This document shows, one piece after another, positions 6,694 to 17,617 of a stretch of 64,000 bases of DNA. The number at the start of each line of letters is the position of its first letter. Position 1 is the stretch's first letter. Origin of the DNA: Oscillospiraceae bacterium (GTDB lineage Bacteria > Bacillota > Clostridia > Oscillospirales > Oscillospiraceae); assembly GCA_017432615.1 (NCBI GenBank), contig JAFRIV010000029.1, positions 1-64,000 on the forward strand, in the 5' to 3' direction. A program made the translations under genes and the position numbers. The notes under the pieces are model-generated. The model was not told where the DNA came from. It ran no database searches and saw only the letters and a program-made list of their open reading frames with translations.

Positions 6694-7722
6694 TTACGCA
6701 TCCTGCACGAGCATGTCTTCCTCCGTCTCCGGGATGCCCTCCGGCTCGGCAGCGGGTTCCGAAGGCTCTTCTTCTGCAGGCGAGGGTTCCTGCCCGGCGG
6801 CGGGAGCATCCTGCCCCTCCTGGGCCTCTTCCTGCCCGGGATCGAGGATCTCTTCCCAGGCTTTTTCAATTTCTTCTTTCCGCAGCCGTTCTTCCTCCTC
6901 ACGCTTTGCCTGCTGTTCAAGCACGTCCGCTGCGGGGATCACCGGGGGAGGGGGCGTTTCCGCCGCGGCCTGCTTTTCTGCCTCCAGCTTTTCCGCCTGC
7001 CGTTTTGCCTCCTCCTGCTGCAGCCAGACGAGGTATTCCTCCTGCCGTTCTATGGCGGCAAGTTCTTCGGGGGTAAATTTCTGCATGCAGCCGACGATGC
7101 GCCGGGCTTTCCAGTCGTGTGTTTGCAGATACTCCTCTACAGAGGTGATCAGCACCCCGTGAGCGCTGTCCATCGCATGGATGAAATCTCCCTCGCCGAT
7201 ATAGATGCCCGCATGATTGATGTAGCTGCTGCCGTGCCACGAAAAGCATAGAATATCACCGGGCAGCAGTTCTTCCAGCTTTTCGACGGCGATTCCGTTG
7301 GTCGCCTGGTCGGCGGCCACGCGATTCAGACGATAGCCGAACTGCCGGTACACATAGTATACCAGTCCGGAACAGTCAAACCCGGTGGCAGGATCCTTCC
7401 CGGCATAGCGGTAGGTTCCCCCGTCAAACTGCCTGGCGTATTGCGCGATCTCCTCTCCTTCGTAGGGCACCGGGGTCGGCGCCGGCGTTTCTGTCGCCGC
7501 GGGGGACAGAGAGGGCGAAGGGGAAGCTGTGACGGCAGGAGACGGCTCCGCCTCCGGAGAGGGGCTTAAAATCGGAGACGGCACAGGCGAGACCTCAGCC
7601 GCGGGCAAAACCGCCTGCGACTGAGGACCTGCCCCTCTCAGCGTGCACGAAGAAGTCAGAAACGGTATCGCCAGCAGGAGCGGGATTAGTATCAAGATGG
7701 GAGGGAGTGATCGTCTTCTCAT
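6694..7722 (-). CDS. NlpC/P60 peptidoglycan endopeptidase lipoprotein
   Basis: Predicted cell-surface cysteine peptidase cutting peptide stems of peptidoglycan, 342 residues. A lipoprotein signal begins MRRRSLPP and ends at lipobox LTSSC. A Pro/Ser/Thr/Glu-rich linker leads to an NlpC/P60 domain at about 90-210, with catalytic Cys117 (FDCSGLVYYVY) and His170 (NHAGIYIG). The last about 120 residues are a Glu/Gln/Lys coiled coil (RQEEYLVWLQQEEAKRQAEK) followed by an acidic Pro/Glu tail, an unusual C-terminal extension for this family. I place the start at ATG 7722 because the signal peptide begins there; the TTG reading further upstream has no ribosome site. The promoter at 7732-7761 puts the transcript start almost on this ATG, so the message may be leaderless. 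Confidence 0.85.
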   Translation of the reverse strand: MRRRSLPPILILIPLLLAIPFLTSSCTLRGAGPQSQAVLPAAEVSPVPSPILSPSPEAEPSPAVTASPSPSLSPAATETPAPTPVPYEGEEIAQYARQFDGGTYRYAGKDPATGFDCSGLVYYVYRQFGYRLNRVAADQATNGIAVEKLEELLPGDILCFSWHGSSYINHAGIYIGEGDFIHAMDSAHGVLITSVEEYLQTHDWKARRIVGCMQKFTPEELAAIERQEEYLVWLQQEEAKRQAEKLEAEKQAAAETPPPPVIPAADVLEQQAKREEEERLRKEEIEKAWEEILDPGQEEAQEGQDAPAAGQEPSPAEEEPSEPAAEPEGIPETEEDMLVQDA

Positions 7723-7731
7723 AACACAGCC

Positions 7732-7761
7732 ATTATACAGGAAATGATGCCTGTACGGCAA
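7732..7761 (-). promoter_or_regulatory. Promoter of the NlpC/P60 gene, leaderless arrangement
   Basis: On the minus strand: TTGCCG (7761-7756), 18-base spacer, perfect TATAAT (7737-7732). The expected start site is about 7725, three bases before the ATG, and no Shine-Dalgarno sequence is present. Confidence 0.55.
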
Positions 7762-7810
7762 GATAATTCTGTGCCTGAGGGGAGAAATCAAAAAACCATA
7801 ATTGTTTTCG

Positions 7811-7873: not shown

Positions 7874-8959
7874 GTGGCACAGAACGATTCAGGCGCAGAA
7901 AAGATCTTTCGCAAAAGCGAAGAAGAGATGAGTGAAATAGAAAAAATGATGGCGGATATCCTGGAGGAATACGGCGATCACGGGGATACGGCAGAAAACA
8001 AACCCACACGTCAGCCGGCCCGGAAAACCGGTCAGGAGGAACGCCGCTCTGCATATGCCTCTCCGGAACCCCCCGTCAGAAAACCGCGTCCCCGCAGCGA
8101 GGCACGCACCTCCTCCGCACCGCGCGGCAGCGCAGCGGAACGCAGGGAAGCCCCTTCCGCCGTTCAGGCGCATAAGCAGAATGTGGAAAGAGAAAAAAAT
8201 ATCACCAAAGAGGCGAAAAAACGCAGTGCCGCTCCTGTGATCCTGCTCCTGGTGCTGATCGTACTGCTGGTGCTGGGGACGATCGTCTACACAAAAGTTT
8301 TTGAAGATATCCGTCTCAACGGGATCCTTCCTTCCCGCCAGACGCAGCAGGAAGAAGAACTGACGCCTGCCGAACTGGAGGCGATGGCCATTGCCGCGGT
8401 GACTTTCCCGCCGGATATGGTCTTCCCCACACCGGAAAATGAGGAGGCTGTCAATGCCGGGACAATCATACCCCAGCCGCCGGCCGGTTCCATTGTGATC
8501 ATTTCCGATACGCCGGTTACACCCGATCCTGCGCAAGCGCAGACGGAGGAGACGCCTGTGGAACATTCCTACCAGTTCTTTACGGAAGACCTCAGCTGGA
8601 CGCAGGCACAGCAGAAGTGCCTTTCTCTCGGCGGACATCTGGCTGTAGTCAGCAGCCTGGAGGAACTGAACGAGATCACAGCGCTGGCCTCTTCAAACGG
8701 CATTCAGAAGGTCTGGCTCGGCTGCCATCGCGAAAACGGGGAGCTCGTGTGGGAGAATAACGAAACGGTCGACTTTTACGCCTGGGGTCGCGGAGAGCCG
8801 TCTCTTTACGACAGCGGAGACAACGTTGCGGAGGATTATCTGCTCCTCTGGTATTTCAACGGCGCATGGGTCTATAATGACAGCCGGGATGATCCCGTGC
8901 ACGATTATCCCCAGATGTACAGCGGGCAGATCGGTTATGTCTGTGAGTTCGGCAAGTAA
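7874..8959 (+). CDS. Membrane-anchored C-type-lectin-domain protein
   Basis: 361-residue type II membrane protein. Residues 1-119 are a charged, Pro/Arg/Glu-rich cytoplasmic region. Residues 120-141 are one membrane helix (PVILLLVLIVLLVLGTIVY). About 142-230 is a low-complexity extracytoplasmic stalk. About 231-361 is a C-type lectin-like domain, recognised by YQFFTEDLSWTQAQQKCLSL, LGGHLAVVSS, VWLGCHRENG and the closing GYVCEF. The calcium-site positions read EPS and YND where sugar-binding lectins have EPN and WND, so the ligand is unknown. GTG is the start, with AAAGGGGG eight bases upstream. It lies between wall-active genes, suggesting an envelope role (inference). Confidence 0.82.
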   Translation: MAQNDSGAEKIFRKSEEEMSEIEKMMADILEEYGDHGDTAENKPTRQPARKTGQEERRSAYASPEPPVRKPRPRSEARTSSAPRGSAAERREAPSAVQAHKQNVEREKNITKEAKKRSAAPVILLLVLIVLLVLGTIVYTKVFEDIRLNGILPSRQTQQEEELTPAELEAMAIAAVTFPPDMVFPTPENEEAVNAGTIIPQPPAGSIVIISDTPVTPDPAQAQTEETPVEHSYQFFTEDLSWTQAQQKCLSLGGHLAVVSSLEELNEITALASSNGIQKVWLGCHRENGELVWENNETVDFYAWGRGEPSLYDSGDNVAEDYLLLWYFNGAWVYNDSRDDPVHDYPQMYSGQIGYVCEFGK

Positions 8960-9018
8960 GCATTGCCTTGATCCATAGAATCTGAATATTTTTTATAACG
9001 GAAAGCGGGGAACAAATC

Positions 9019-10800
9019 ATGAAAATCTTTACAAAATCCGTCGCACTCTTGCTGAGTGTTCTGATGGTGCTCACTTTGAGTGCCGCAGCCTTCGCAACGA
9101 ATGATGCACCGGCTGACACGGAAGCAGCTTCTGCCACCGGTATTATTGATGCTTCGGAAATGCAGAAAATGCTGGACGACTATGTAGCCCAGTACAGCCT
9201 TGATTCCCGGGCAAGATCTCTCTGTGTCGGCTTCTGCTATCTGAAAACCGGCGATATGTGGTTTTATAATGAAGACAAATGGTGCTACAGCGCAAGCCTC
9301 TACAAAGTGCCTGTCTCGATGCTCTGCGCGCAGAAGGAAATGGCAGGGGAGATCACGGCGGATACCCGCTATGAAAACCAGTACAACACCGGCACGCTGG
9401 ATCAGCTGGAGATGAAAGCCCTTGTCAATTCCGACAACGATGCAGGCCATGCCCTGGTGCAGTGGATGGGCGGCACGTATGCGGGCAAGTGCGCCGACCA
9501 GATCATTCAGTTCACCGATCTTCCGGAGAGCTACTTCAACCAGGACTTTTTCAGCGTCAGCTACTATAACGTCAACTTCTTCACACAGGTGCTGCGTACC
9601 CTTTACAACAACCAGCAGGACTATCCGCGTATCCTCAATTATATGAAGCAGATGAAAGTGGACGGCACGACGCCGGACCTCTCCAGGAATCTCGGCGGCG
9701 CCTACGAAGTAGCCCAGAAGTACGGCTCCTTTGAGGAGACCAAGACCAACCCCACCAAGAACAACAAGCATGTGGGAGGCATCATCTATACGCCGAATCC
9801 CATCGCCGTCACGATTCTGACGGTCAATGTGGACAACTATCCCGAACGCATCGCGGAAGTGGCCAAAATGCTCACGGACTATGCGCTGACGCTTGACAGC
9901 CGCTATGCCTCCTATCAGGCGGAGCAGGCTCGTCTCGCCCAGGAAGAAGCTGCACGGGCTGCCCAGGCTGAGCAGGAGCGCCTCGCAGCGGAAGCTGCCG
10001 CACGTCAGGCACAGCAGGCGGCTCTCAATCCGGTTACCCCCGACCCCAATGTTTCCATCTTCGTCAACAATCCGTCCACGGACAACGGTTCTGCCTCTTC
10101 CGGCGGCATCGGTTCTTCCTCAGGGTCCTCCGGCTCTTCCGGCTTCTCCATCGGCGGATTGAAAGCGCTGTTTGACGGTATGGAATCCACACAGAAGATC
10201 ATTATCATCGCGGGGGTTGCCGTCTTCGTCGTTGGAATACTGCTGCTGATCATTGCGCTGATCGTTCGTTTGAAGCGTGGCAGAGATGACGATTATGATG
10301 ACTATGATGATTATGATTCCCGTTATGACGACGATTACGACGACCGCCCGTCCCGAAAGGCAAAATCCGCCAAAGCAAAGAAAACACCCAAAGCACCCGT
10401 CGCACCGACAGCCGAAAAACGCAAAAGCTCCGGCCGGAAAATGTCAAAGCGGGAAGAAGAATACTATGATGACCTCCCGGCAGAGAATGTTTCCGATGAC
10501 GAATTCTATTACGATCCGAAGGATTACGAACAGGCAGAGGGAGACTATTATGAAGACGAAACTTCCTATGATGACGGATCGTATGATGACGGAGCCTACT
10601 ACGAGGATGAGGGGCAGGCATACGATGACGGCGGCTATGACGAAGCAGACTATGCGGACGCAGCCTACGGAGATCAGGATTTTGCGGAGGAGTTCACGGA
10701 CGACCAGTTTGACGACCAGAACTATCTTGACGGCGATTTTTTAGATGACAGCGATTTTGAGGATTTTAAAGACTACGACTCCTCCCGTTATGACACTTAA
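9019..10800 (+). CDS. Beta-lactamase-fold serine hydrolase with membrane helix and Asp/Tyr-rich tail
   Basis: 593-residue exported protein. A signal peptide ends near AFA-TND. Residues about 45-300 resemble a class A beta-lactamase/transpeptidase-like domain, with Ser93-x-x-Lys96 (SASLYKVP) and an SDN motif near 138-140 (NSDNDAGH). A Lys-Thr-Gly equivalent is not obvious; HVGGIIYT may occupy that strand. An Ala/Glu/Gln helix and a Ser/Gly linker follow, then one membrane helix at about 393-417. The last about 175 residues are cytoplasmic and extremely rich in Asp and Tyr (DDDYDDYDDYDSRYDDDYDD) with one Lys/Ala/Pro-rich insert. A peptidoglycan or penicillin-recognising role is likely; the tail has no function I can name. 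GGAAAGCGGGG precedes the ATG. Confidence 0.8.
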   Translation: MKIFTKSVALLLSVLMVLTLSAAAFATNDAPADTEAASATGIIDASEMQKMLDDYVAQYSLDSRARSLCVGFCYLKTGDMWFYNEDKWCYSASLYKVPVSMLCAQKEMAGEITADTRYENQYNTGTLDQLEMKALVNSDNDAGHALVQWMGGTYAGKCADQIIQFTDLPESYFNQDFFSVSYYNVNFFTQVLRTLYNNQQDYPRILNYMKQMKVDGTTPDLSRNLGGAYEVAQKYGSFEETKTNPTKNNKHVGGIIYTPNPIAVTILTVNVDNYPERIAEVAKMLTDYALTLDSRYASYQAEQARLAQEEAARAAQAEQERLAAEAAARQAQQAALNPVTPDPNVSIFVNNPSTDNGSASSGGIGSSSGSSGSSGFSIGGLKALFDGMESTQKIIIIAGVAVFVVGILLLIIALIVRLKRGRDDDYDDYDDYDSRYDDDYDDRPSRKAKSAKAKKTPKAPVAPTAEKRKSSGRKMSKREEEYYDDLPAENVSDDEFYYDPKDYEQAEGDYYEDETSYDDGSYDDGAYYEDEGQAYDDGGYDEADYADAAYGDQDFAEEFTDDQFDDQNYLDGDFLDDSDFEDFKDYDSSRYDT

Positions 10801-11593
10801 TGCACGCTCCGTTCTGTCGGCCTTTCTCATCTTCTGCCTCTGCTTTTCCCTTGCCGCCTGCGGCGGCAGCGGATACGGCGTCAAGGCAATCCAGACCCTG
10901 GTAGAGCAGGACTATTATCTCGCCTTCCGGAATAATGACCCGATCATCTACTATGTTGTAGCCGCCATTCAGGTGCTTGCCGCACAGGGAAAGGTGGATG
11001 AACTTTCAACCAAGTGGTTCGGCAGCCGCGTGATCAATTTTGAGAAGAACCTGAACGCGCTGGACAACCTTGCCGTGCCGAAGGACAAGACGTTTATCAT
11101 CGGGGTCGACGTCAATTCCTTCCCGTTTGTCTATCAGTCCAACGGAACGCTGTGGGGGTTCGATATAGAACTGGCGATCGCAACGGCGGAACTGCTCGGG
11201 TGGACGCTCAAGGAGCAGAGCATCGAGAAAGAAAAGGTTTACGATGAGCTGGCCTCGGGGAATATCGATTGCGCATGGGGCGGGATTGCCCTGTCGGACG
11301 AGTTGGTAAGAGATACACGCCTTGCCATATACGGGCCTTATATCAGCAACCAGATCGTCATTGCAGCAAGGGACAGTTCCATGACGGTCAGCATGAAAGG
11401 AAAGACCCTTGCCATGCCCTCCACCACGGAAGCGCTGGCAGCTTTGAACAGCAACCAGCGTCTGGCAGGGCGCCTTGGCAATGTGATCCGCCTTGTCGGG
11501 GGCACGACGGAATGTTTTACCTATCTCTATGAGGGGCGGTGTGACGCCATTCTGACGGACAGCACGGCGATCCTCTATTATAATTCCCATTAA
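10790..11593 (+). CDS. Amino-acid-binding-type lipoprotein with permuted domain order
   Basis: 267-residue lipoprotein; the signal peptide ends at LAACGG. It belongs to the family 3 solute-binding fold, but the order is rotated. The segment that normally ends the domain (YYLAFRNNDP, AAIQVLAAQGKVDELSTKWF) comes first, at about 25-70. The normal N-terminal part (FIIGVDVNSFPFVYQSNGT, GFDIELAIATAELLGW) follows, and the protein stops where the second lobe would still need its last helices (CDAILTDSTAILYYNSH). The ATG at 10790 overlaps the previous gene by 11 bases and begins the signal peptide; the frame 15 codons upstream is overlap only. No permease is adjacent, so it may act as a receptor rather than in import (inference). 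Confidence 0.78.
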   Translation: MTLNARSVLSAFLIFCLCFSLAACGGSGYGVKAIQTLVEQDYYLAFRNNDPIIYYVVAAIQVLAAQGKVDELSTKWFGSRVINFEKNLNALDNLAVPKDKTFIIGVDVNSFPFVYQSNGTLWGFDIELAIATAELLGWTLKEQSIEKEKVYDELASGNIDCAWGGIALSDELVRDTRLAIYGPYISNQIVIAARDSSMTVSMKGKTLAMPSTTEALAALNSNQRLAGRLGNVIRLVGGTTECFTYLYEGRCDAILTDSTAILYYNSH

Positions 11594-11602
11594 AAAGACA
11601 GG

Positions 11603-11631
11603 TGCGGGAGGGCAGGCTCTGCCCTCCCGCA
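11603..11631 (+). terminator. Strong hairpin after the binding-protein gene
   Basis: A perfect 13-base stem, TGCGGGAGGGCAG/CTGCCCTCCCGCA, with a three-base loop. No T-run follows, so it may be a pause or processing hairpin rather than a full terminator. Confidence 0.45.
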
Positions 11632-11648
11632 GCCTTTGGAGGCTGATA

Positions 11649-12191
11649 ATGGCTAAAAAATATATTGCGGATTATACCCTGCAGGAAGTTACGGATCCCG
11701 CCGGCGGAAAGAGCAGGCAGGTCCCGGTCTACAGCGGGCCACTCTTTCGCTTCCTTCTCGCCGGGAAAGCGCTGACAGTGGCAAAGAGAGTTTTTTCCCT
11801 CCTGACGATCCTCGGCGCGGCGGGAGTGGCTGCGTCGTTGATGACCAATGCCCCCTGTGCGAGAAAATGGTATGTGATGTTCCCCCTGGCGCTCTCCCTG
11901 CTGCCCCTCTTCCTGCAGGGAGAGAGCTGTTTTCTCTTCTGGAGGGCAAAAGAGCCGCTGAAGCGGGAACAGCGGGACAAAATAGAAAAGCGGACGGTCG
12001 TCACGGCTGCCTTTTCTGCCTTCCTCTCGGCTTTTTCTCTTGCAGGACATATAGTTTTTATGCTATACTATCAAGAGTCCATGTCCGACGCAGTCTATCT
12101 TCTGGGGGCGGCGGACCTTCTGATCTGTTCTCTCCTGCTCATCAGGCAGCGGGAAAAGCTGAAAACTGAAGAGGTCCCGTATCCGCGATAA
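11649..12191 (+). CDS. Four-helix membrane protein of unknown function
   Basis: 180 residues, not recognised. A hydrophilic N-terminus of about 45 residues (MAKKYIADYTLQEVTDPAGG) precedes four predicted membrane helices at about 45-65, 75-95, 115-140 and 145-165, with a charged loop (KREQRDKIEKR) in the middle and a basic/acidic tail. GGAGG lies nine bases before the ATG, so translation is well supported. It sits between the permuted binding lipoprotein and the oligopeptide transporter; whether it belongs to either is not shown by the sequence. No conserved catalytic residues are evident. Confidence 0.65.
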   Translation: MAKKYIADYTLQEVTDPAGGKSRQVPVYSGPLFRFLLAGKALTVAKRVFSLLTILGAAGVAASLMTNAPCARKWYVMFPLALSLLPLFLQGESCFLFWRAKEPLKREQRDKIEKRTVVTAAFSAFLSAFSLAGHIVFMLYYQESMSDAVYLLGAADLLICSLLLIRQREKLKTEEVPYPR

Positions 12192-12242
12192 ATGTATATT
12201 CCAGCTTATGCTGCAATATAAAATAATCTTTTGGAGGAAAAC

Positions 12243-14483
12243 ATGAAAACATCCAGAATCCTGGCAATGTTCCTGGCACTGGCTATGGTGTTCACTCTGG
12301 GAGGGGTTTCTTTTGCCGAGAATACGGCAGAAGAAGCGCCGTCTACCCTGGTGTATGCCACTTCTACCTTCGGGCAGAAGTTCAGCCCCTTCTTCGCTAC
12401 CACGGCTTACGATATGGAAGTCGTCGATCTGACGCAGGGCGCCCTTTTCGGCTATGACCGCGGCGGCGCGATGATCGAACACGGCATTGAGGGCGAAACG
12501 CGCACCTACAACGGCACGGACTATACCTATTATACCATGGGTAATGTCGATGTGATCCAGAATGAAGACGGCACGGTGGATTACAATCTTACCATGCGCG
12601 ATGATATCGTCTTCTCCGACGGCGTCCCGGCCGATATCGATGACGTGATCTTCGGGATCTATGTCCTTTCCGATCCGACCTATGACGGTTCTTCCACCAT
12701 CTATGCCCTTCCCATTGAAGGCATGGAAGAGTACCGCTCCGGCATGGAATCCCTCTTCGGCCTGCTTGCTGCAGCCGGTCGTGACAACGAGGATTTCACC
12801 TACTGGACGGCGGAGACCCAGCAGGCTTTCTGGGCAGATGTGGATCAGGCCGGTGCGGCCTTCGCACAGGAAATTGCGGATTACTGCATTGCAAACGGCT
12901 ACAATGAGACCACGGATAGCGTGGCTGCCTGCGCGGCCAACTGGGGTTTCGAACTGGCAGAGGATGCCACGGCGGCAGACTTCTTTGCCACCATGTACGA
13001 TGCCTATGAAGGTGACCTTGCAAACCTCTCCGATACCGAGTCTGCAGGCTCCAGCCTCTACGACCTGATGGACAACTACGATGCCTACGCTGTCGGCGTT
13101 TCCACCGGAAACGGTGCCCCCAACATTTCCGGCATCGTCCGCACGGGCGATTATTCCATGACGGTCCATATGACGGAGTTTGATGCAACCGCCATTTACA
13201 ATATGGGCTTCACTATTGCTCCGCTGCACTATTACGGAGATGAATCCCTTTATGACTATGACAACAACAGCTTCGGCTTCCCGAAGGGCGATCTGAGCCT
13301 CGTGAAGGACAAGACCACACAGCCTGTCGGCTGCGGTGCTTATGTGCTGGACAGCTATGCAAACGGCGTTGCTACCCTCAAAGCCAATCCGAATTACTTT
13401 GAAGGCGAGCCGGTCACCAAAGTGATCCTGATGCAGGAAGCTGTGGAAAGCGACTATGTGCCCGGTACGGTCACCGGCACCTTTGATATCTCCACCCCGT
13501 CCATCAATGACGATACGGTTGCTGCCATCAAAGACGCCAACTCCAACAAGGAGCTCGTCGGGGATACGCTGACCACTTACCTCATTGACTACCGCGGATA
13601 CGGCTATCTCGGCATCAATGCCGACCTCGTCAACATCAACGGCGAGCCGGGCTCTGAGGCTTCCAGAGCACTGCGCAAAGGCTTTATGACGCTCTTCTCT
13701 GTCTATCGTGACACGGTCATCAACTCCTACTACGGAGACAGGGCAGCCGTCATCCAGTACCCCATTTCCAACACTTCCTGGGCCGCTCCCAAGCCGGCGG
13801 ATGAAGGCTATCAGGCGGCTTACTCTGTCGATGTGGATGGAAATGCGATCTACACCTCTGCCATGAGTGATGAAGAGAAGTATGCTGCCGCAAAGGATGC
13901 CGCCGTCGGCTTCTTTAAGGCGGCAGGCTTCACCTGGGATGAAGCAGAAGGCAAATTCACCGATGCGACGGAGACCTATGAAGTTATGATCCCCGGCCAG
14001 GGCTTGCAGGATCACCCGGCTTACGGCGTGGCTGTGGCGGCTTCCGAAGTGCTTGCCGACCTCGGCATTACCCTCCAGGTCAACGACGTCGGAACTTCCG
14101 TCTGGAACAATTCTCTGGAGAGCAACACCGCTATGATGTGGGCAGCCGCATGGCAGGCTACGCCCGATCCGGATATGACACAGGTCTACCACAGCACCAA
14201 CGCTCACGGCAACGGCACAAATTCCAACCACTACTCTGTGGATGATGCAGCACTGGACGAACTGATCGAAGCCGGCAAAATGAGTGCTGACATCGAATAC
14301 CGCAAATCCGTATACAAAGAAGCCATGGAGATCATTATGGACTGGGGCTGCGAACTTCCGCTCTACCAGCGCAAAAACTGCTATGTGTCTTCGACTGTCC
14401 GCGTAGATAACGACACCATGCCGAAGGATATGACGCCTTACTGGGGATGGTATGCCGAGATCAGCACTCTGGCAGTAAAGTAA
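12243..14483 (+). CDS. Oligopeptide ABC transporter, family 5 substrate-binding protein
   Basis: 746-residue extracytoplasmic binding protein of the OppA/DppA class. The signal peptide (MKTSRILAMFLALAMVFTLG) ends at an AxA-type site (SFA-EN) with no lipobox Cys, so it is not an ordinary Gram-positive lipoprotein. Family features include LTMRDDIVFSDGVPADIDDV near residue 120, GCGAYVLDSYANGVATLKAN near 365 and a C-terminal block with HSTNAHGNGTNSNHYS. The protein is about 200 residues longer than typical, mainly through an extra region at about 165-280. The ATG at 12243 has GGAGG seven bases upstream. It heads the opp-like operon; a hairpin after it probably favours excess binding protein over permeases. 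Confidence 0.9.
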   Translation: MKTSRILAMFLALAMVFTLGGVSFAENTAEEAPSTLVYATSTFGQKFSPFFATTAYDMEVVDLTQGALFGYDRGGAMIEHGIEGETRTYNGTDYTYYTMGNVDVIQNEDGTVDYNLTMRDDIVFSDGVPADIDDVIFGIYVLSDPTYDGSSTIYALPIEGMEEYRSGMESLFGLLAAAGRDNEDFTYWTAETQQAFWADVDQAGAAFAQEIADYCIANGYNETTDSVAACAANWGFELAEDATAADFFATMYDAYEGDLANLSDTESAGSSLYDLMDNYDAYAVGVSTGNGAPNISGIVRTGDYSMTVHMTEFDATAIYNMGFTIAPLHYYGDESLYDYDNNSFGFPKGDLSLVKDKTTQPVGCGAYVLDSYANGVATLKANPNYFEGEPVTKVILMQEAVESDYVPGTVTGTFDISTPSINDDTVAAIKDANSNKELVGDTLTTYLIDYRGYGYLGINADLVNINGEPGSEASRALRKGFMTLFSVYRDTVINSYYGDRAAVIQYPISNTSWAAPKPADEGYQAAYSVDVDGNAIYTSAMSDEEKYAAAKDAAVGFFKAAGFTWDEAEGKFTDATETYEVMIPGQGLQDHPAYGVAVAASEVLADLGITLQVNDVGTSVWNNSLESNTAMMWAAAWQATPDPDMTQVYHSTNAHGNGTNSNHYSVDDAALDELIEAGKMSADIEYRKSVYKEAMEIIMDWGCELPLYQRKNCYVSSTVRVDNDTMPKDMTPYWGWYAEISTLAVK

Positions 14484-14504
14484 TCTCTAAAAAGCTTTCT
14501 TTCT

Positions 14505-14535
14505 GCACGGAAGGGGCTATCAGCCCCTCCCGTGC
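14505..14535 (+). terminator. Intercistronic attenuating hairpin
   Basis: GCACGGAAGGGGCT and AGCCCCTCCCGTGC form a 14-base stem with one mismatch and a three-base loop. Looser T-runs follow (TGTTTTATAG, then a run of seven T at about 14553). It sits between the binding-protein gene and the permeases, where partial termination is common. Confidence 0.6.
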
Positions 14536-14572
14536 CCTGCTGTTTTATAGTATTTTTTTCAGGTGATCGAAA

Positions 14573-15562
14573 ATGTTCAAGTATACTGTAAAAAGGCTGC
14601 TTTACAGCGCCATCATACTTTTTTTTGTGATGTTTATCATCTATGCGCTCATGTACAATATGCCCATGAGCTTCGTGGAGACCAAGGCGAGGGAACTCGC
14701 CTCGCGGCCAGGCGCCACCAAAAGCTATGCGGAATGGCTGGCGGATCTGAATGCCCAGTACGGCATGGACAGAGGCGTCGTAGGCGGTTATTTTATCTGG
14801 ATCGGGAATGCGGTGCGCGGGAACTGGGGCGACAGCTGGGCATGGACGATCCCTGTGACCCAGGTGTTCAAAAACACCGTATGGTACAGCTTCGCGCTCA
14901 GTATGGTTTCCTATGTTTTTGAGATCCTGATTGCCATCCCTCTCGGGATCACAGCGGCGAAGAAGCAGTACAGCTTTGCGGATTATTTTACAACGGTTTT
15001 TTCCATGATCTGCATTTCCATGCCGACGTTTTTCCTGGCAACCCTGCTCAAATACGTCTTCTCTGTGAAACTCGGCTGGTTTGATCTGTCCGGTATGCAG
15101 GGAAGGAATTATATGAATCTCTCTGATTTCGGAAAATTCCTGGATGTGGCGAAGCATTTTGTCCTGCCGTCGATCACGCTGATCATTATCAACATCGGCG
15201 GACTGATGCGCTACACCCGTACAAATATGCTGGAAGTGCTCAATGCCGACTATATCCGCACAGCGCGTGCCAAAGGCGTGCCGGAAAAGAAGGTCATCAA
15301 TGTGCATGCTTTCCGCAATACGCTGATCCCCCTCATCACGACCCTTGGCGGAATGCTGCCGGGGCTCTTCTCCGGTGCACTGATCACAGAATCCCTCTTT
15401 GCCATCCGCGGGATAGGATATGCGTCCTATACATCCATGACGCAGGCGGATATTCCCTTTATCATGTTCTATCTGTCGTTTATCTCGATCCTGACGCTGC
15501 TGGGAAATCTGATATCCGACCTGCTGTACGGCGCGGTAGACCCGCGGGTCCGTCTGAGCTGA
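14573..15562 (+). CDS. Oligopeptide ABC transporter permease, OppB/DppB type
   Basis: 329-residue inner-membrane permease with about six helices. The N-terminal helix (LLYSAIILFFVMFIIYALM) is typical of this class. The EAA loop that contacts the ATPase is present near 225-250 (NADYIRTARAKGVPEKKVIN, then HAFRNTLIPLIT). The C-terminus reads LLYGAVDPRVRLS, close to the family consensus YAxxDPRxR. AGGTGA lies upstream of the ATG. Twelve bases separate it from the next permease gene. Length and domain order are ordinary, unlike its partner permease. Confidence 0.93.
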   Translation: MFKYTVKRLLYSAIILFFVMFIIYALMYNMPMSFVETKARELASRPGATKSYAEWLADLNAQYGMDRGVVGGYFIWIGNAVRGNWGDSWAWTIPVTQVFKNTVWYSFALSMVSYVFEILIAIPLGITAAKKQYSFADYFTTVFSMICISMPTFFLATLLKYVFSVKLGWFDLSGMQGRNYMNLSDFGKFLDVAKHFVLPSITLIIINIGGLMRYTRTNMLEVLNADYIRTARAKGVPEKKVINVHAFRNTLIPLITTLGGMLPGLFSGALITESLFAIRGIGYASYTSMTQADIPFIMFYLSFISILTLLGNLISDLLYGAVDPRVRLS

Positions 15563-15574
15563 GGAGGTGCGGAT

Positions 15575-17617
15575 ATGACGAATACGCTCAATGAAGCGCT
15601 GAAAGCAAAAGAAAGAGAGCGGGTACAGTCTGCGGATGAGACGATCCATCTCGATGACGTTTCCCGTGTAAAAGTCCTTTCTCCCGGACAGCAGGTCTTC
15701 AAACGCTTTGTGCGCAACAGGCTTGCGGTCTTCGGAACCGGCCTGCTGATCCTGATGTTTGTCTTCTCCTTTATCGGCCCGCTGTTTTATGCCTATGGGC
15801 AAAAACAGATTTTTTACAAGTACAGCACGCAGAATGTCAATTACGCATTGGCCAAAACCAATACGGCATATAACGGGTATGTCGTAAACAGTGAGGTGGA
15901 GCTTTCCCGCAAGGTTGTCAATGCGATGAACAGCAACATCAAGAGCATGATCGCTTCTGAGGAGGAACTCCGCTGTGTATTCGACGGCGAAGAGGCCTAT
16001 CTGATCCGAAAACTCGGCCATGAGGTCTATACCCTCAGCAGGGCGGAGCTTACACCGATCTGCACAACGGGAAAGGCCGTTGTGCGCATCGGCACGTACA
16101 GCATGCTCTCCAAGTCCGTCGCCTATGCGGAAGCGGATGCGGAGGAGATCCCCGGCCTGGATGCCGCCGCTGCAAAAAACTGCAAGGGAAAGAACGGCTC
16201 TTTTGAACTGGACGGGATATCCTACACCTTTGAAATGGGCAAAGCGAAATCCTTTGATCTCTATACCGAGAGAGAGGGCTTTGTCTATACCGCATCTTCC
16301 CCGGGAGAAGGATTTGAAGAAGCGGTGGAAAGAGCGGTCGGGACCTCCGGGTTTTCTTATAACGGAAAGCAGTATTTTCTCTCCGAAAACGGCAAGACAG
16401 CCGCCGTCTATGAATTCCTGGGAGAAGAAGTGGGAAGAGTGTATTCTCTCCTTACGCTGGATACCTATACCACGGGGGAGACAATTTCCGATGATTTTCG
16501 TCCGGCTGCCCTGATGGCTGCCTACGGAAGCGGCAGTTTTACAGCCAACGGTGCGGCTTATACGGTTTTGCCGGAGGAGAACGGCGCCCTTGCGGTCTTT
16601 GACGCCGACGGGAAGGAATTTGCCGAATTTACCGACTTTACCGTCCGCCGTTATACAGGGGAAGACACCATGGACTATGATCTGAAGAATGCGATCATGG
16701 ATGAGATCCTCTCCATGCTTTCCGAGGGAAAGCGAACAGGGAAGCTGACCTATCCTCTCCCGATGCAGAATGAGACGGGATCCTACGTCTATGACGATTC
16801 CGGCGCTCTGCAGTACAATGATGCCGAGCTTACGATTACCCAGCGGGATACCGGAGAGTTTGTGATCAACTGTGAACAGATCATCTATGTGATCAATATG
16901 TATGAAGCCCCCAGTTCCAGGCATATCCTCGGTACCGACGGCGACGGATTTGACGTACTTGCCCGCATTATGTACGGCGGCAGGATTTCCCTGATGGTCG
17001 GGTTTGTGGTCGTCTTTCTGGAGATCCTGCTCGGGATCATCATGGGCGGCCTTGCGGGTTATTACGGCAAATGGGTGGATAATCTGATCATGCGTCTGGT
17101 GGATATTTTCTACTGCCTGCCGTCCATGCCGATCATGATCATCCTCGGCGCCATGATGGATGCCCTGCGCATGAACACGTATATCCGGCTGATCATCATG
17201 ATGGCGGCGCTTGGCCTGATGGGCTGGGCCGGTGTTGCAAGGCTTGTCCGCGGCCAGATCCTTTCTCTGAGGGAACAGGAGTTCATGGTCGCCACGGAGG
17301 CAACCGGCATCAAGGTCAGGTCCCGGATCTTCCGTCATCTGGTCCCCAATGTCATGCCGCAGCTGATCGTTACGGCAACTATGGGCATGGGCTCCGTAAT
17401 CATCATGGAGTCGACCCTCTCCTTCCTTGGCCTGGGGGTAAAGCATCCGCTGGCGACCTGGGGTACGATCATCAATTCCGTGTCCTCCGCCTCGGCTATG
17501 GCACACTATGCCTTTATCTGGATCCCGGTCGGGCTGCTGATCTGCCTGACGGTCATTGCCTTTAACTTTGTGGGCGACGGCCTCCGGGATGCTTATGATC
17601 CGAAATCAAAACGCTGA
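15575..17617 (+). CDS. Oligopeptide ABC transporter permease, OppC/DppC type, with a large extracytoplasmic insert
   Basis: 680 residues where the family is usually about 300. Helix 1 is at about 51-72. The conserved region that normally follows within some 50 residues, HILGTDGDGFDVLARIMYGG, starts only at 450. The intervening about 375 residues are hydrophilic, with repeating short strands (YTLSRAELTPICTTGKAVVR, FSYNGKQYFLSENGKTAAVY), and must lie outside the membrane. After 450 the permease is normal, with an EAA loop (EFMVATEATGIKVRSRIFRH) and terminal GDGLRDAYDPK. GAGGAGGTGCGG precedes the ATG. The insert could dock the non-lipidated binding protein, which is inference. Confidence 0.9.
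   Translation: MTNTLNEALKAKERERVQSADETIHLDDVSRVKVLSPGQQVFKRFVRNRLAVFGTGLLILMFVFSFIGPLFYAYGQKQIFYKYSTQNVNYALAKTNTAYNGYVVNSEVELSRKVVNAMNSNIKSMIASEEELRCVFDGEEAYLIRKLGHEVYTLSRAELTPICTTGKAVVRIGTYSMLSKSVAYAEADAEEIPGLDAAAAKNCKGKNGSFELDGISYTFEMGKAKSFDLYTEREGFVYTASSPGEGFEEAVERAVGTSGFSYNGKQYFLSENGKTAAVYEFLGEEVGRVYSLLTLDTYTTGETISDDFRPAALMAAYGSGSFTANGAAYTVLPEENGALAVFDADGKEFAEFTDFTVRRYTGEDTMDYDLKNAIMDEILSMLSEGKRTGKLTYPLPMQNETGSYVYDDSGALQYNDAELTITQRDTGEFVINCEQIIYVINMYEAPSSRHILGTDGDGFDVLARIMYGGRISLMVGFVVVFLEILLGIIMGGLAGYYGKWVDNLIMRLVDIFYCLPSMPIMIILGAMMDALRMNTYIRLIIMMAALGLMGWAGVARLVRGQILSLREQEFMVATEATGIKVRSRIFRHLVPNVMPQLIVTATMGMGSVIIMESTLSFLGLGVKHPLATWGTIINSVSSASAMAHYAFIWIPVGLLICLTVIAFNFVGDGLRDAYDPKSKR

Follow-up and report, generated by a model that had tools for sequence, protein, structure and literature searches.

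Evidence for recurrent natural circular permutation among family 3 solute-binding proteins of Clostridia-type genomes

A binding-protein domain in rotated order

The first 64,000 nucleotides of contig JAFRIV010000029.1 from an Oscillospiraceae bacterium (GCA_017432615.1), referred to here as the window, contain a gene for a family 3 (PF00497, SBP_bac_3) solute-binding lipoprotein. On sequence evidence, we consider it highly probable that the product is a cluster F lipoprotein with a genuine and conserved circular permutation, and that such a change of order recurs among its relatives. The canonical order in family 3 is N1-C-N2: the first part of the N-lobe (N1) leads through hinge 1 into the C-lobe (C), and the chain then passes through hinge 2 into N2, the last strand plus helices, which returns to the N-lobe in the fold topology of GlnBP and LAO-BP. 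The window protein departs from this rule of a terminal block at the end, and its modules run N2-N1-C as listed below; residue numbers are those of the open reading frame (ORF) minus 15.

10790..11593, plus strand: coding sequence, 267 amino acids, for the circularly permuted solute-binding lipoprotein of family 3, N2-N1-C (ORF, Pfam, module hidden Markov models [HMMs] and hhalign)
10790..10861, plus strand: signal peptide and lipobox (LAAC), first mature residue Cys24 (by eye)
10889..11026, plus strand: N2 module, residues 34-79, the strand-helix-helix block that closes canonical family 3 proteins
11027..11086, plus strand: linker, residues 80-99, between the former C- and N-termini (gap between the N2 and N1 matches)
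11087..11368, plus strand: N1 module, residues 100-193, the N-lobe as far as hinge 1 (N1 HMM i-Evalue 5.2e-29)
11390..11581, plus strand: C module, residues 201-264, the C-lobe (C HMM i-Evalue 2.2e-20)

The linker is thus 20 residues long, and the C module is followed only by N-S-H and the stop codon. The original prediction, made from the sequence alone, held that the block closing family 3 proteins stands first, behind the lipobox, that it is missing from the C-terminus, and that the order is C-terminal end, N-lobe, C-lobe. All three statements were borne out: the module HMMs placed N2 at residues 34-79, the stop lies three residues after the C module, and hhalign gave two matches in swapped order. 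The prediction had also named an observation that would overturn it, a C-terminal block recoverable after position 11593; a six-frame scan of positions 9000-14000 found none.

Evidence for the rotation

The window protein matched PF00497 with an E-value of 1e-17 and 64.6 bits (curated cut-off, 26.4). When phmmer was run against the sequences of the Protein Data Bank (PDB), window residues 98-264 paired with residues 16-186 of 4ohn, and residues 45-83 at the head paired with 4ohn 211-250, at an i-Evalue of 21 that is not significant alone; 3hv1 showed a similar swapped pairing with a non-significant head i-Evalue of 470. The N2 HMM detected the block at an i-Evalue of 9.3e-17 with a model that includes permuted proteins, and a canonical-only N2 model detected it at an E-value of 1.4e-4 in the six-frame scan. 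The same scan of positions 9000-14000 revealed no second N2 block; the other N2 matches had E-values of 1.2 and 1.5 and lay in the upstream gene.

For profile comparison we used 35 distinct close relatives, comprising the window protein, the proteins of 29 genomes of the same genus and five proteins of similar identity from metagenome-assembled genome records; they represent 41 loci before the removal of duplicates. In hhalign, columns 83-252 of their full profile aligned with columns 2-169 of a profile of 61 canonical proteins (E 2.4e-33), and columns 20-78 aligned with canonical columns 182-241 (E 1.3e-8), in swapped order. The head alone matched canonical columns 182-235 of 242 with a score of 61.3 (E 1.3e-10), whereas a shuffled-column head used as a control scored 13.2 (E 0.17). 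With canonical-only models and a limit of E < 0.01, the complete order of three modules was recovered for 57 of 81 permuted ORFs.

An alternative is that the first 60 residues are a helical spacer resembling the C-terminal block by chance. We regard this as very improbable, given the head alignment and its shuffled control, the detection of N2 by canonical-only models at E-values of 1e-18 to 1e-24 in the permuted relatives L045, L100 and L051, and the absence of the terminal block from its expected place. An unrelated N-terminal domain is likewise contradicted by the sequence evidence, and a hidden tandem was rejected because the window protein contains one N1, one C and one N2 only.

Conservation and distribution

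Besides the window's own genome, 55 of 60 genomes of the same genus carry a window-type protein, at 52-78% identity; the five genomes lacking a match are 57-84% complete. All 41 loci of close relatives, and hence all 35 distinct proteins, end in N-x-H (x = S, C or A), and a motif resembling a lipobox stands ahead of their domain, as judged by pattern or eye rather than by a signal-peptide predictor. Sixty-nine positions are invariant across the 35 distinct proteins.

It is conceivable that the protein is a functionless leftover from the truncation or decay of a protein with two binding domains in tandem: tandem proteins do exist (L060 and L123), and trimming of a tandem would give such an order. 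The retention of the gene across the genus, the constant C-terminal end, the 69 invariant positions and the retained operon described below make this explanation hardly credible.

Among 38 other genomes of the same order in that search, one match was obtained at E <= 1e-20 (G080), and when 295 genomes of the order were searched with a profile, more full-span matches emerged, in other families. The length remaining after the C-lobe separated the two forms: 0-12 residues in permuted proteins versus 63-82 in canonical single-domain proteins in the order search, and 1-8 versus 57-66 residues in the class and phylum searches, where L103 is cut by a contig end. Module scoring of 151 distinct ORFs gave 74 N2-N1-C proteins (35 of them the window protein and its close relatives), 62 N1-C-N2, seven C-N2-N1, two tandem and six partial ORFs. 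Permuted forms of family 3 occur in two rotations in Clostridia-type genomes, also in further families of the order and of the class, which goes beyond the original claim.

Full-span matches were not always permutations. The match at L060 was rejected as a permutation because it lies inside a tandem, and in a 398-genome phylum search the full-span loci L123 and L128, the two that were judged (G1043 was left out), proved to be tandem or split canonical proteins. In L128 (870-2490, plus strand, genome G1094) only a TAG codon stands between two in-frame binding-protein ORFs of canonical order; the arrangement may represent a split tandem or stop-codon read-through.

A second rotation

The order C-lobe, N2, N1 was observed at seven loci (L159, L165, L166, L168, L169, L170 and L171), of which L171 was a partial match in the phylum search, from another class, that turned out to be C-N2-N1. 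Six of the seven proteins stop within about ten residues past the N-lobe. A different cut was seen in L168 (4355-5209, plus strand), where it falls inside the C-lobe and the first part of that lobe stands at the C-terminus; this is a single example on a long branch, with a permease and an ATPase encoded behind it.

A further example of the modules C-lobe, N2, N1 was present in the window's own genome, on contig C46 of G000 (L002/L177; L002 700-2313, minus strand), fused directly to an amino-acid permease and cut at hinge 1. In this 542-amino-acid fusion the C-lobe match covers residues 62-125 (E 1.3e-4) and N1 covers residues 201-295. The genome has six PF00497 loci. Two of them are permuted, each at a different hinge, and the remaining four have canonical order or are consistent with it.

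Since N2 and N1 share one lobe, either rotation would turn that lobe into an unbroken stretch of chain, with a single connection remaining between the lobes. In the window protein the module order, N2-N1-C, would put the cut on the hinge side, as the original prediction had expected. More specifically, the connection broken in N2-N1-C would be that of hinge 2, and in C-N2-N1, whose cut lies at hinge 1 or close to it, that of hinge 1.

Repeated change of module order

Phylogenetic trees were built from 79, 74 and 72 proteins, with rows rearranged into one module order; 35 of the 114 collected rows had been removed before any tree was made, as near-duplicates or partial rows. The 74-protein tree omits five long-branch rows (L002, L168, L055, L064 and L057), and the 72-protein tree omits L047 and L073 in addition. 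The N2-N1-C order required seven or eight changes in these trees, of which at least four or five were forced by well-supported branches. Placing all N2-N1-C proteins in one clade was rejected (delta lnL 242.6, p-AU 7.5e-77), and they formed one group in 0 of 200 bootstrap trees, from a bootstrap run that was not fully settled. The N2-N1-C protein L051 and the N1-C-N2 protein L105 were sisters with SH-aLRT values of 97 and 99, and share 69, 65 and 65% identity in N2, N1 and C, respectively. These results indicate that module order has changed more than once among the relatives. The tree counts are counts of changes, and both several gains and fewer gains combined with reversals would fit them.

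The window clade joined the permuted proteins L047, L064 and L073 of its family when these were included, a grouping flagged as a meeting of long branches. The permuted form is conserved within the genus, but N2-N1-C proteins overall do not make up one clade. As to the proposed origin by tandem duplication and trimming of both ends, tandem double proteins exist, but they are not the nearest relatives of the permuted proteins in the trees, so that this route is plausible and not more.

Operon context of permuted relatives

We retrieved 33 N2-N1-C loci from outside the window genus with their flanks; L154 and L162 were too short downstream, which left 31 testable loci with at least 1.1 kb of downstream sequence. 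A permease gene lay directly downstream in 25 of the 31, accompanied by an ATPase gene in 23, and the testable loci lacking a permease were L076, L086, L089 and L090, all four from the window's family, together with L153 and L163. Both genes were present at all seven C-N2-N1 loci. The permease model was built from eight of these same loci, whose permeases all pass TIGR01726 (8/8), and the ATPase was detected by motif; greedy gene calling, which produced spurious wrong-strand ORFs among L037-L043, was left out of the neighbour counts. Because of these permease and ATPase operons, most permuted relatives with known surroundings would, by context, be subunits of amino-acid ATP-binding cassette (ABC) importers.

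Neighbours and operon partner in the window genus

On reading the neighbouring genes we saw neither a permease of the amino-acid type nor its ATPase adjoining the window gene, in keeping with the original prediction as regards the permease, and an importer context of that kind was not seen in the window genus either. The gene directly upstream encodes a different partner:

9019..10800, plus strand: operon partner, beta-lactamase-family protein (PF13354, Pfam E 2e-12) with SxxK, SDN and KYG motifs

The last 11 bases of this gene, stop codon included, are also the first of the lipoprotein gene and, by eye, the domain of the partner is followed by a C-terminal transmembrane stretch, as a membrane anchor, and then an acidic tail. 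The class A beta-lactamase model gave the window partner 13.5 bits, far under its cut-off of 200 bits. The partner was the same-strand upstream neighbour at 29 of 34 testable loci (35 loci, L026 being untestable), and 25 of 27 measured gaps between the two genes were 60 bases or less. Among the 29 partner rows, the Ser and Lys of SxxK were each kept in 24, S-x-N in 28 and K-Y-G in 28; of the remaining SxxK rows, four read otherwise (perhaps through misalignment) and one had a gap. Several partners, those of L012, L033-L038 and L043, end in Y-x-P-[KR]-H behind the membrane anchor, an ending that the window copy does not have.

The next ORF downstream of the lipoprotein gene (11649-12191) is membrane-protein-like and passes no Pfam cut-off. 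It is followed by an oligopeptide-type ABC set (12231-17617, plus strand, named by eye), whose second permease (15575-17617, 680 amino acids) has a long insert behind the first membrane helix; a binding protein of this set was not found beside the gene pair in L033 or L034. On the other side lie genes for an NlpC/P60-like lipoprotein (6694-7791, minus strand) and a C-type-lectin-like membrane protein (7874-8959, plus strand), both named by eye, and these also adjoin the pair in L033 and L034.

Lost ligand residues and possible role

We take the Arg of T-x-E-R and the aromatic residue of I-D-W to be the residues that usually hold the amino acid. In the 35 distinct close relatives, with both columns mapped via alignments, the Arg position is occupied by Glu (27), Asp (6) or Leu (2), and the usual Trp is Lys in all 35. 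The invariant positions include D84, N86, F88, E123, K124, E125, W140, T189, E191, C219, C228, D234 and H244 in mature numbering (Cys24 = 1), and a disulfide between C219 and C228 is a possibility.

With N2 directly behind the lipid anchor, the N-lobe of the window protein would be uninterrupted (N2-N1); hinge 1 and the C-lobe would come next, and the chain would end where the path to hinge 2 would start. This module order predicts that the customary two-lobed cleft still forms, but that the chain crosses covalently between the lobes once rather than twice and that the anchor lies near a hinge. In the window genus the protein would have left the importer setting and entered a new operon with a membrane-anchored, serine-hydrolase-like protein while acquiring its own invariant residues. 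A receptor-like role, at which the original prediction had hinted, is plausible because there is no linked amino-acid permease, the amino-acid-binding residues have been lost and the operon partner is conserved. The likeliest role, to which we give about an even chance, would be to bind or sense a ligand at the cell surface in concert with that partner. We offer more tentatively, as a possibility that we would not favour over its negation, a fuller picture in which several clostridial permutations at either hinge are natural single-hinge flytraps and that of the window genus is a putative ligand-sensing subunit of the serine-hydrolase-like partner, with its Asn-x-His end at the cut hinge beside the cleft.

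The main rival to a sensing role concerns function only: the protein may be permuted yet be an ordinary subunit of an amino-acid ABC importer, with the permease and ATPase genes lying at other sites in the genome. Importer operons are the setting of most flanked permuted relatives, 25 of 31 having a permease, and the window's own genome encodes three amino-acid-type permeases, C23, C14 and C46, all on contigs other than that of the window. However, the C23 and C14 permeases each adjoin a binding protein of their own on the same strand, the C46 permease is fused to one, and the usual Arg and Trp are replaced throughout the genus. With the genome 87% complete, a permease may be missing from it. 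Overall we consider import in trans a serious but rather unlikely explanation.

The protein may also have become an enzyme on a binding-protein scaffold, like cyclohexadienyl dehydratase. The invariant charged residues E123, K124, E125 and D234 and the loss of the carboxylate-binding Arg would suit this, and solute-binding proteins that turned into enzymes have a precedent in the available text of PMC7683729; against it, no active-site motif was recognised and no small-molecule-pathway context was seen, neither having been searched for systematically. We judge this improbable.

Several observations weigh against our overall interpretation, in which a permuted binding protein arose within a family of recurrent permutation and serves as a sensor in the window genus. 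The rejection of one clade would also be compatible with an order that arose once and then reverted to canonical several times, and the long branch of the window genus prevents its own permutation event from being placed. None of the best 60 of 115 PDB matches spans the permuted order as one single domain, and 6h30 covers it only across its tandem. In the remaining 24 of the 81 permuted ORFs, many of them from the window genus, canonical-only models scored one or two modules too weakly, although they placed no module out of order. The permuted protein L087, from the window's family, does have a permease and an ATPase, and the serine-hydrolase-like partner is missing within about 1.5 kb at five of the 34 testable loci (L007, L024, L027, L030 and L032). 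We nevertheless retain permutation as the best account of the module order, and sensing with the partner as the likeliest role.

Comparison with known systems

The permuted proteins share the three modules of PF00497/cluster F members such as 3hv1, 4ohn, GlnBP and LAO-BP and, among the relatives, the operon with permease and ATPase. In contrast to those members, the window protein has a rotated order, which would interrupt one lobe connection and put the termini near a hinge, and the window genus is without the usual amino-acid-binding Arg and Trp. Pfam labels the permuted proteins as plain PF00497, so that they are easily overlooked. The tandem SBD1-SBD2 proteins of GlnPQ-like importers (6h30; L060 and L123) contain the permuted order as an internal stretch, in which the C-block of the first domain leads into the second domain, but they consist of two complete canonical domains with no permuted termini, whereas the window protein is one unit only.

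In the open-licence PubMed Central (PMC) literature, as far as its accessible text goes, we found no description of a natural permutation in family 3, which is not proof of absence; the one natural permutation of a solute-binding protein found there was that of TpMglB-2, the others being engineered for biosensors. According to the available portions of PMC4990184, Tp0684 (TpMglB-2), proposed as 'Type Ic / Cluster Bc', is a lipid-tethered binding protein whose natural circular permutation leaves ligand binding and conformational change intact; it has homologues in Gram-positive gut bacteria. It has the sugar-binding Type I fold, and its permutation is described there as adding a fourth crossover between the lobes, whereas the window type should remove one of two. 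In the Pfam scan of the window protein only PF00497 exceeded its cut-off, and no Type I sugar-binding family did so. The present proteins differ further from TpMglB-2 in that their permutation would occur at two different hinges.

Cluster F binding proteins are thought to move via two hinge strands, and natural families in which one or the other hinge strand should be interrupted raise the question of whether both are needed for closure, affinity and docking. This need is directly testable, because an intact and a permuted protein form a 65-69% identical pair and most flanked members lie in importer operons. The sections of PMC6450668 available to us class cluster F binding proteins by hinge. 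Natural switches of order would provide a test of how Venus flytrap proteins open and close. Circular permutation appears to be a recurrent event within one protein family. The closest engineered counterpart is cpLAO-BP of cluster F, in which, according to the accessible text of PMC5087393, one inter-domain linker was deleted and the old termini were joined; fused to fluorescent proteins, it retained lysine binding, though roughly 36-fold weaker than that of the single protein. Whereas cpLAO-BP, as far as that text describes it, is man-made and serves in fluorescence resonance energy transfer (FRET) sensors, the equivalents described here would be natural and occur at either hinge.

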